Under the pieces are notes generated by a model. It was not told the DNA's origin. It was given only the letters and a program-made list of their open reading frames with translations, and did not search any database. The position numbers were made by a program, and so were the translations under genes. Of a stretch of 38,244 bases of DNA, positions 6,383 to 9,787 are shown one piece after another; position 1 is the first letter of the stretch; each line of letters starts with the position of its first letter. Origin of the DNA: Erythrobacteraceae bacterium (GTDB lineage: Bacteria; Pseudomonadota; Alphaproteobacteria; Sphingomonadales; Sphingomonadaceae); the NCBI GenBank assembly GCA_027489095.1, contig JAIYAL010000087.1, forward strand, positions 1 to 38,244. Reading direction: 5' to 3'.

Positions 6383-7759
6383 TCATGGAGCATCGGACGC
6401 AGCGCCGCTGTCGGCTCCCGCTGGAGACACCAGCCGGTATCCTAGCGCCGGTTCATTGACGATCAGCACCGGTGCTGCGGGATCATCCTCCAGCTTTTGC
6501 CGCAGCGCGCGGATCGCGACGCGCAGGTAATCGACATGATCCTCGTGCGCGGGGCCCCATACCGCGCGCAGCAGCTGGCGGTGGGTCAGCACCCGCCCCG
6601 CATGGCGCGCGAGTTCGGCAAGCACCGCGAATTCCTTGGGCGTCAGATGCACCGCCTCGTCCGCGCGGCTCACCTGATGGCGGAACAGATCGATCAGGAG
6701 CGGCCCGCACATAATCGGTTCCTGATCCTCCCCCGGGCCCAGATCGACCAGATTGTCGACATAGCGCTGAAGCATCGCCGCCTCCGCCGCCACGGCGCCC
6801 GCCGCTGCCGTATCTCCCGGATTGCGCCTGAGGCTCCTTGCCCCCGTCTGGATCGCGTGGAGACGCGGCTTCACGTCTTCCCCGATCGAGGCGAGCAGCA
6901 CCGCGCGCATCCGGTCACGCTCGCGCGCCGCGATCCCCGCCGCAGCCTCCGCCTCGAGCCGCGCGCGCTCCAGCGCCAGCGCTGCCTGATCGAGCAGGTT
7001 GGCGAGCAGCTCGCGCGTCGCCTCGGTCACGGGCGAGCGGCCATCGGGGCGCGCAAGACCAACCGCGGCGTGGACCTTGCCTTGCCCGACCACGGGGTGG
7101 AACTGCCAGTCGGTCGGGCTCACATGCAGCATCCCGCGCCCGGTCACCCGCCCCTGTTCGAGCGCGCCGGCCAGCGAAGCGTGATCATTGGGGGCAAGCA
7201 CAGGGACGGGGGGCAGGGCGGCGAGGATTGCGGGAGGTTCCTCGTTCGCGGCAAAGACCACATGGCAATCGAACAGCCGCGCAAGATCCTCGGTCACGAC
7301 CTGCGCCACTGCCGCGCGATCGGTGCAGGGGATAAGGCGGCGCGCAAGACCGGCGATGGTTGCATTGCGCGCGGCGCTGGCGGCGGCCAGCTGCGTCTGG
7401 ACGCGCATCGCACTGGCGAGCTGGCTGGTGACCACCGCCACCAGAAACAGCGCAGCCACCGTCAAGAGGTCCGCCGGGCTGCTGATCTGCAGCGTGCGGA
7501 AGGGATGGGTGAAGAAGAAGTTGAACGCCAGCGTCGCCAGCACCGAAACGCCAAGCGAGGGCCATAGCCCGGCATAGCGCGCCGTTACCAGCACGGGCGG
7601 GAGATAGAGAAGCACGATCGCCCCCGATCCCCAGCCGGGGGCGAGCAGCAATCCGGTGAGTGTTGCGGCCAGCGTAAGCAGCAGGCCAAGCGCAAGGCCG
7701 ATGGCGCGCGAACCCGTGCTGGGTGCAGCCGCGAGGGTGGGGGAAGGAAGGTCTGTCAT
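6383..7759 (-). CDS. Membrane-anchored hybrid regulator: KdpD-type DUF4118 TM module + GAF + degenerate DHp + KdpE/OmpR-type winged helix
   Basis: Translation from MTDLPSPTLAAAPSTG to the stop at 6383. Contains several TM segments (AIVLLYLPPVLVTARYAGLWPSLGVSVLATLAFNFFFTHPFRTLQI), a GAF region, LLASIGEDVKPRLHAIQ (H-box lacking His) and VHLTPKEFAVLAELARHAGRVLTHRQLLRAVWGPAHEDHVDYLRVAIRALRQKLEDDP (KdpE-like wHTH). Confidence 0.9.
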   Translation of the reverse strand: MTDLPSPTLAAAPSTGSRAIGLALGLLLTLAATLTGLLLAPGWGSGAIVLLYLPPVLVTARYAGLWPSLGVSVLATLAFNFFFTHPFRTLQISSPADLLTVAALFLVAVVTSQLASAMRVQTQLAAASAARNATIAGLARRLIPCTDRAAVAQVVTEDLARLFDCHVVFAANEEPPAILAALPPVPVLAPNDHASLAGALEQGRVTGRGMLHVSPTDWQFHPVVGQGKVHAAVGLARPDGRSPVTEATRELLANLLDQAALALERARLEAEAAAGIAARERDRMRAVLLASIGEDVKPRLHAIQTGARSLRRNPGDTAAAGAVAAEAAMLQRYVDNLVDLGPGEDQEPIMCGPLLIDLFRHQVSRADEAVHLTPKEFAVLAELARHAGRVLTHRQLLRAVWGPAHEDHVDYLRVAIRALRQKLEDDPAAPVLIVNEPALGYRLVSPAGADSGAASDAP

Positions 7760-7864
7760 GCCCCGGAAGATGCGCTCCAATGCCCCGCGCGCCAAGCCTC
7801 GCGATGCCTCCCATGCTGCAATCCACATGGAAACTTTATGCCCATCAGGCGCACATGAAGCGTC

Positions 7865-9787
7865 ATGGACACGACCAAGCCCGGCGCATCTGCCGCCACT
7901 ATCGCCGACGCTTCCCATACTGGCCCCCGCGATCCGCTGCCCGTGCTGATGCTTGGCGCGATCGGCGTCGTCTATGGTGATATCGGCACCTCGCCGCTCT
8001 ATGCGCTCAAGGAAAGCTTTGTCGGGCCGCACCCCCTTACGGTTGATCGGCTCCATGTGTTCGGCGTGCTCAGCCTCATCTTCTGGTCGCTGATGCTGAT
8101 CGTGACGCTGAAATATGTGCTGGTGGCGATGCGCGCCGATAATCGCGGCGAGGGCGGTTCCTTTGCCCTGCTCGCGCTGATTTCGCGTCATGTCGAAGGT
8201 CGGCGGCTGAGCGCCATTCTGGTGGTTCTGGGCGTGCTTGCCGCATCGCTGTTCTATGGCGATGCGATGCTCACCCCGGCGATCTCGGTGCTTTCGGCGG
8301 TCGAGGGGCTGACGATCGTCAACCCCGCGCTGGAAGCGCTGGTGCTGCCGATTGCGGTCGTCATCCTGATCGGCCTGTTCCTGATCCAGAGCCGGGGGAC
8401 GGCCAAGGTCGGCGCGCTGTTCGGCCCGATCGTGCTGGTCTATTTCGCGACGCTCGCCGGTCTCGGCATCGTCAACATTGCCGAGAAACCTGAAATCCTC
8501 GGCATCCTCAACCCCGTCCATGCGGCCGCCTTCTTCGCCTATGATCCGCACCTGGCCTTTCTTGCGATGGGATCGGTGTTTCTTGCGGTGACCGGGGCCG
8601 AGACGCTTTATGCCGATATGGGCCACTTTGGCCGCCGCGCGGTGGCCTTCAGTTGGCTGGGGCTCGCCTACCCCTGCCTGATGCTCAATTACATGGGGCA
8701 GGGCGCGCTGCTGCTTGCCCATCCCGAGGCGGCCGAGAACCCCTTTTACCTGATGGCGCCTGAATGGGCGCGGCTGCCGCTGGTGCTGATTGCCACGGCG
8801 GCGACGATCATCGCCAGTCAGGCGGTGATATCGGGCGCTTTCTCGGTCACGCATCAGGCGGTGCAGCTGGGCTTCCTGCCGCGTTTCCGCACGCTCCAGA
8901 CCAGTGCCAAGGCGGCAGGCCAGATCTATATCCCGGCGATCAACTGGGGCCTCTTGGTGATGGTGCTGGTGCTGGTGCTGGGCTTCCAGCAATCGACCCG
9001 CCTTGCTTCGGCCTATGGCATTTCGGTGATCGGGACGATGCTGATCACCACGCTGATGCTCGCCTTCCTCGTCTTCAAGGTGTGGCGCTGGAACATCCTG
9101 GTGGCGGGGGCGACGATCGCGCTGTTTGGGGTGGTCGACGGCATCTATTTTGCCTCGAACATCGCCAAGATCCCCGATGGCGGCTGGTTCCCGCTGGCGG
9201 TGGCGGGGGTATTGTTCACGTTGCTCACCACCTGGTCCACCGGGCGGCGGATCATGCGCGAACGCATGGAAGAGGGCGATCTGACCCTTGCGCAGTTCAT
9301 CGCGTCGGTCGCGGGATCGGTGCACCGGGTCAAGAACACCGCAGTCTACATGGCCGCGGCAACCAGCGGCGTGCCATCGGCATTGCTCCATAACCTCAAG
9401 CACAATCAGGTGCTCCACGCGCGGGTGCTGATCGTGACGGTCGAGGTGGCAGAAGTGCCGCAGGTTGATCCGGCCCACCGCACTGAAGTGCACGACGAGG
9501 GTGAGGGCTTCTACCGCGTCATCATCCGCTATGGCTTCATGGAGGATGTCGACGTGCCGCGCGAGCTTGGCGCGCTCGATTGCATCGGGGGGACGGTGTT
9601 CGATCCGATGACCACAAGCTACTTCCTCGGCCGCCAGAAGCTGATCCCTTCGGAAGAACACCCCGGCATGGCGCGCTGGCGCGAGGGGCTGTTTGCGTGG
9701 ATGTCGAAGAGCTCCGAAAGCGCGATGGAAAGCTTCAAGCTGCCCACCAACCGGGTGGTCGAACTGGGGAGCCAGTTGCAGATCTGA
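7865..9787 (+). CDS. kup: KUP/HAK/KT family potassium transporter
   Basis: LMLGAIGVVYGDIGTSPLYALKESF and GDAMLTPAISVLSAVEGL; 640 aa with a typical C-terminal tail. Confidence 0.97.
   Translation: MDTTKPGASAATIADASHTGPRDPLPVLMLGAIGVVYGDIGTSPLYALKESFVGPHPLTVDRLHVFGVLSLIFWSLMLIVTLKYVLVAMRADNRGEGGSFALLALISRHVEGRRLSAILVVLGVLAASLFYGDAMLTPAISVLSAVEGLTIVNPALEALVLPIAVVILIGLFLIQSRGTAKVGALFGPIVLVYFATLAGLGIVNIAEKPEILGILNPVHAAAFFAYDPHLAFLAMGSVFLAVTGAETLYADMGHFGRRAVAFSWLGLAYPCLMLNYMGQGALLLAHPEAAENPFYLMAPEWARLPLVLIATAATIIASQAVISGAFSVTHQAVQLGFLPRFRTLQTSAKAAGQIYIPAINWGLLVMVLVLVLGFQQSTRLASAYGISVIGTMLITTLMLAFLVFKVWRWNILVAGATIALFGVVDGIYFASNIAKIPDGGWFPLAVAGVLFTLLTTWSTGRRIMRERMEEGDLTLAQFIASVAGSVHRVKNTAVYMAAATSGVPSALLHNLKHNQVLHARVLIVTVEVAEVPQVDPAHRTEVHDEGEGFYRVIIRYGFMEDVDVPRELGALDCIGGTVFDPMTTSYFLGRQKLIPSEEHPGMARWREGLFAWMSKSSESAMESFKLPTNRVVELGSQLQI

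Follow-up and report, generated by a model that had tools for sequence, protein, structure and literature searches.

The data reported here describe a single-chain regulator, encoded beside the K+ transporter gene kup, which we consider likely to be a membrane one-component regulator derived from a collapsed kup-linked KdpD/KdpE system, with the target and operator kept and with activation of kup at low K+ as its probable role. In its sequence, the ATPase domain, the receiver and, in all but one of the fusions, the phospho-accepting His have been lost, and the sensor, the helix pair and the DNA-binding domain have been kept. The gene lies in a stretch of 38,244 nucleotides from an Erythrobacteraceae bacterium (hereafter the window). 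A sequence-only reading of the window had already described the fusion and suggested a link to kup. Additional features found here are the replacement of the His, the candidate operator, the presence of a second kup, the usual absence of kdpFABC, and likely two-component precursors that are themselves linked to kup.

Domain composition and the phospho-accepting position

The fusion gene (6383..7759, minus strand, ATG at 7759) is a single open frame of 458 aa that is conserved in 40 loci, and all of its parts lie on the minus strand. A DUF4118/KdpD-type four-helix membrane module (residues 23-126; 7382..7693; Pfam PF13493, E 3e-24) is followed by a KdpD-like GAF domain (residues about 143-265; 6965..7333), recognized by a weak Pfam GAF match and by Foldseek (4y2f), and by a DHp-like helix pair (residues about 266-338; 6746..6964), defined by alignment with 20 kinases and by the helices of the model. 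A short linker (residues 339-348; 6716..6745), which is a loop in the AlphaFold2 model and of similar length among the fusions listed, marks the place where HATPase_c and the receiver are absent, and the KdpE-like winged-helix DNA-binding domain (residues 349-446; 6422..6715; PF00486, E 1e-21; 3zq7 by both sequence and fold) completes the protein, with Trans_reg_C covering residues 368-443 of the 458 (Pfam, E 1e-21). The best NCBIfam matches were KdpE over residues 352-444 and KdpD over residues 21-312; the winged helix is of the OmpR/PhoB type and closest to that of KdpE. An AlphaFold2 model built on a 34-sequence alignment gave the same order, with four N-terminal helices (residues 15-142), a GAF fold and a helix pair (246-312 and 317-338), followed by a loop and the winged helix, and in Foldseek it matched the KdpE DNA-binding domain (3zq7, TM 0.91) and the E. 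coli KdpD GAF domain (4y2f, TM 0.79); because the mean pLDDT was 81.5 and the pTM 0.50, the folds of the single domains deserve more confidence than their mutual arrangement. Pfam, NCBIfam, AlphaFold2 and Foldseek thus agree with the sequence-only reading that one continuous minus-strand frame joins a KdpD-like membrane and GAF region, a DHp-like pair and a KdpE-like winged helix.

That reading had also claimed that HATPase_c, the receiver and the N-terminal KdpD/Usp domain are missing, and this was borne out: in Pfam, up to E=1, the window fusion has no HisKA, HATPase_c, Response_reg, KdpD or Usp match. DUF4118 and Trans_reg_C are both present in all 34 aligned homologues, HATPase_c or Response_reg in none of them (Pfam), and KdpD-N/Usp is absent from the Pfam families listed for these 34 members, nine of which retain a HisKA match. 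By membership, the fusion is neither a KdpD nor a KdpE, as the defining features of each were tested and are missing. The DNA-contact residues of KdpE are R193 and R200 (PMC3264566), and these align with R413 and R420 of the fusion, both invariant in the 34 fusions; R413, W401 and G402 are invariant among the aligned fusions.

In the alignment, the column of the phospho-accepting His reads E19 D7 Q7 N2 T1 A1 R1 H1 in 39 fusions and H20 in 20 related two-component KdpD kinases, and the window fusion has Glu at this H-box position (Glu294, codon 6878-6880). The sole His-bearing fusion, that of locus L111, is also without HATPase_c and receiver, so the His position was probably freed after the kinase and receiver domains had been lost. 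L111 is not basal in the fusion tree, and its His could be a reversal. Glu or Asp stands in place of the phospho-His in 26 of the 39 fusions; such acidic replacement is possibly commoner than neutral drift would give, and the acidic residue could serve as a phosphate mimic or as a stabiliser of the helix pair.

These observations also bear on the idea that the fusion is a non-autonomous partner subunit of another sensor kinase or of a phosphorylated response regulator. The persisting DHp-like helices could make mixed dimers, and the genome has other OmpR-family regulators (G000:C87); against this, the His position varies freely, the receiver domain is absent, most fusion genomes are without kdpA and no KdpD/KdpE pair was found in genome G000, and we regard a partner role as improbable.

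The kup neighbour and the candidate operator

The presumed target, kup (7865..9787, plus strand), encodes a K+ transporter of 640 aa (PF02705, E 3.5e-183) and starts 106 bp from the divergent fusion gene. The link to kup, which had been proposed as a mere possibility, is now strongly supported, since the two genes lie head-to-head in 40/40 loci and share a near-invariant intergenic site that is unique to fusion genomes. At least two kup genes are present in all 37 whole genomes carrying the fusion, and one each in four checked genomes of the same genus without it. kdpA occurs in two of these 37 genomes (G286 and G607) and is lacking in the other 35; in the family sample it was found in 1/23 fusion genomes versus 101/358 others (Fisher p 0.013, uncorrected for kinship). 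Thirty-five of the linked kups group together in a single clade (support 0.99); the kups at L049, L050, L089, L109 and L111 belong to another type, with the regulator and site retained, an apparent in-place replacement of the target gene. As fusion, kup and site travel together, the counts of their co-occurrence do not represent independent events.

The candidate operator, AATCCACATGGAAACTTTATGC (7820..7841, plus strand), is near-invariant and kept in 40/40 intergenic regions. It contains the half-sites CACATG (7824-7829) and TTTATG (7835-7840), which are 11 bp apart from start to start with a 5-bp spacer, and its 18-bp core, CCACATGGAAWCTTTATG (7823-7840), has no mismatch in 29 of the 40 loci and one to three in the remainder. 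Over the 40 loci, AATCCACATGGAAWCTTTATGC carries at least 1.1 bits in all 22 columns, and the surrounding intergenic sequence is mostly below 0.8. Allowing at most one mismatch, the site was found once in each of 9/9 fusion genomes and in 0/105 other genomes of the genus, where the reversed control pattern was never found; allowing at most two, it was found in 27/28 family genomes with the fusion versus 0/18 others, with three extra two-mismatch matches elsewhere. The possibility that the site belongs ancestrally to kup leaders in general was rejected: because it is absent near four kups of fusion-less genomes and retained beside kups of the other type, it follows the regulator and not the transporter.

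The E. coli KdpE site consists of TTTATA and TTTACA with starts 11 bp apart (PMC3264566), and the candidate site of the fusion can likewise be read as two hexamers with a 5-bp spacer. The KdpE-type spacing is present (CACATG-N5-TTTATG), but CACATG deviates from the T-rich KdpE half-site, and TCCA-N2-TGGA may mark the sequence as an inverted repeat instead of a direct one. Among about 60 offsets scanned for extra upstream half-sites in 11-bp phase, only offset -22 was prominent (z 4.5), and as it occurs in 7/40 loci it is a minority feature. Downstream, a candidate -10-like element, CACATG (7852..7857, plus strand), is predicted from its conserved CAC, whose three letters carry 2.0, 1.8 and 1.1 bits in turn; a simple scan of the region found no sigma-70 consensus and no terminator. 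Near the fusion start, GTCGAG and AAGATGCGC-like elements are common to many loci (at about 7760-7800 in the window, where they are weaker), and these are perhaps the fusion gene's own -35 and -10.

Regulator genes that diverge from their targets are often autorepressors. With the same anatomy, the fusion might instead repress kup, and perhaps itself too, at high K+ and release the promoter as K+ falls; the divergent layout would suit this, and so would the position of the site 24 bp upstream of the kup ATG, a distance that would fit a repressor and at which the site could overlap the core promoter. We consider repression rather unlikely, since KdpE is known as an activator (PMC11018627), the spacing between the site and the candidate -10 resembles that of PhoB-type activated promoters, and the sigma-70 consensus is absent, as would be the case at an activator-dependent promoter. 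Activation of kup is thus favoured on the basis of KdpE ancestry and of the spacing between the site and the candidate -10.

Spread, selection and likely precursors

The 40 distinct fusion loci encode proteins with 49-88% identity to that of the window. Full-length fusions were found in 9/114 genomes of the window's genus, in another 22 from a family sample of 401 genomes and in six added by an order sample, as well as in named records such as those of Erythrobacter colymbi, E. oryzae, Alteraurantiacibacter buctensis and two Sphingomonadales MAGs; a class-wide sample of 395 genomes yielded none except the window's own and none beyond the order. The fusions fall into a single clade (ultrafast bootstrap 100), and comparison of the window with five relatives gave dN/dS values of 0.03-0.28 across all domains, indicating purifying selection, with GAF the fastest-evolving domain in 5/5 pairs (0.15-0.28). 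Within one genus, the fusions are split over three branches of the fusion tree (L076, L077 and the L069-L075 clade), which suggests horizontal movement of the fusion-kup cassette.

An assembly or frameshift artefact is ruled out by the 40 loci. The sequence-only reading had named three outcomes as speaking against it, and none of them was found: the product has no HATPase_c or receiver domain, and since the fusion and its junction are kept in the 40 loci, the junction does not stem from a sequencing deletion in this one genome and the fusion is not missing from relatives. The loss of the kinase and receiver domains might in principle mark a functionless, decaying kdpDE remnant, or the locus might be artefactual after all; with 40 loci of one clade in named isolates and assembled genomes, low dN/dS, invariant R413, W401 and G402, and a conserved candidate operator, we give this almost no credence.

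Candidate precursors of the fusion were found among two-component systems adjoining kup. In Aquisediminimonas sediminicola (L051, 6324-10462), kup is followed by a 497-aa KdpD, which is without its N-terminal half but has an intact His and HATPase, and then by a full KdpE. Eleven further genomes (L120-L130) have a short KdpD and a KdpE with kup adjoining or nearby, several of them in divergent orientation. The upstream regions of kup read in these precursors contain repeats of the TTTAYG-N5-YTTAYG type on either strand (mostly by eye), and relatives of the fusion site proximal to kup are present in L051, L123 and L129 (CACATGGCAATTTTACG; CCATGGCATCTTAACGG; likewise mostly by eye). These pairs resemble the fusion in having kup as a neighbour, in the 11-bp repeats upstream of kup and in an often divergent layout, and the short KdpDs that were checked are also without KdpD-N/Usp; unlike the fusion, they consist of two proteins, in which His and HATPase are intact (L051, L120) and a receiver domain is present, and they belong to several lineages. 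The short KdpDs are not monophyletic, and L120, which lies divergently to kup, is recovered as sister of the fusions at a bootstrap of only 67; the ancestor of the fusion was therefore probably, but not certainly, a kup-linked divergent KdpDE. In Sphingomonadaceae, short KdpD and KdpE pairs adjoining kup are widespread, and because they fall in several KdpD lineages, they suggest that KdpDE captured kup regulation repeatedly.

One-component systems are usually viewed as ancestral to two-component systems, as reportedly argued by Ulrich, Koonin and Zhulin in 2005. The fusion would represent the reverse case, with a single origin, living precursor forms and a traceable operator. Our comparisons make it reasonably likely that a two-component system reverted here to a one-component one, with the kup-linked KdpDE precursor, a His-holding fusion and His-drifted mature fusions coexisting, and with the target gene and operator kept throughout.

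Proposed mechanism and comparison with known regulators

We propose that the KdpD membrane and GAF modules of the fusion continue to sense K+ outside and inside the cell (or turgor), and that the DHp-like helices hold it as a dimer. A signal would alter the geometry of the helix pair and thereby bring the winged helices of the dimer onto the two tandem half-sites, with the protein remaining membrane-bound while on DNA. The bound fusion would recruit RNA polymerase to the kup promoter, where the site would substitute for the -35 box and the candidate -10 lies about 11 bp downstream, in the style of a PhoB-type promoter, and one extra K+ uptake gene would come under K+ control without phosphotransfer. 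In E. coli KdpD, K+ sites have been assigned to the transmembrane region (extracellular) and to GAF (intracellular) (PMC11018627), and KdpDs truncated of their N-terminal domain respond to K+ limitation but do not bring about full repression at high K+ (PMC2714519); because such truncated proteins are not turned off when K+ is high, K+ control by the fusion may likewise be incomplete.

The signal may be a different one, and a kup regulator that senses membrane tension, ionic strength or a GAF ligand is a possibility to be taken seriously, if still an unlikely one. GAF is the domain that evolves fastest in all five pairs, and the K+ sensing sites have been mapped in the E. coli kinase only; conversely, the presumed target transports K+, and the membrane and GAF modules that were kept are those to which K+ sensing has been assigned in E. 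coli KdpD (PMC11018627). If the fusion does respond to K+, as in our preferred reading, sensing must reside in the membrane, GAF and helix module and be readable without phosphate. In the fusion, the part of KdpD assigned to K+ sensing stands apart from the chemistry of kinase and phosphatase, and, if the reading is true, a KdpD sensor could drive its DNA-binding domain by conformation alone. With one predicted site per genome, the fusion likely provides dedicated transcriptional control for a Kup transporter.

The DUF4118 module, GAF domain, DHp-like helices and KdpE winged helix of the fusion are homologous to those of E. coli KdpD/KdpE. In contrast to that system, the fusion is one polypeptide without ATPase, receiver, KdpD-N or Usp domain, has lost the His in all members but one, and is linked to kup and not to kdpFABC. 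We infer from its architecture that it works like a membrane one-component regulator of the ToxR/CadC type, in which a single protein likewise carries an OmpR-type winged helix and a membrane anchor, with no phosphorelay. The ToxR/CadC style assigned to it by the sequence-only reading holds for the presence of membrane helices together with a winged helix in the same polypeptide and for the absence of receiver and kinase domains, but not for the layout. ToxR/CadC-type proteins have an N-terminal winged helix, a single transmembrane segment and a periplasmic C-terminal sensor; the fusion has the reverse order, with its winged helix at the C-terminus behind GAF and the DHp-like helices, a four-helix anchor and no periplasmic sensor domain, and its ancestry lies in a two-component system.

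A survey of KdpD architecture in 5495 Kdp-bearing species found that the protein is often split or shortened, with the N-terminal domain almost always kept (PMC11018627). Unlike these variants, the fusion keeps the opposite half and occurs mostly in genomes without a Kdp pump, and the survey would miss most of its carriers because it was restricted to Kdp-bearing species. In the literature searched, in which coverage of subscription journals was incomplete, we found no DUF4118-winged-helix fusion and no such regulator of kup. A stand-alone DUF4118-GAF protein of 286 aa, without kinase or DNA-binding part, is encoded at L137 (11861-12721, minus strand; genome G678); it lies upstream of kdpFABC, with no kup adjoining, in a genome that has a full KdpD/KdpE.
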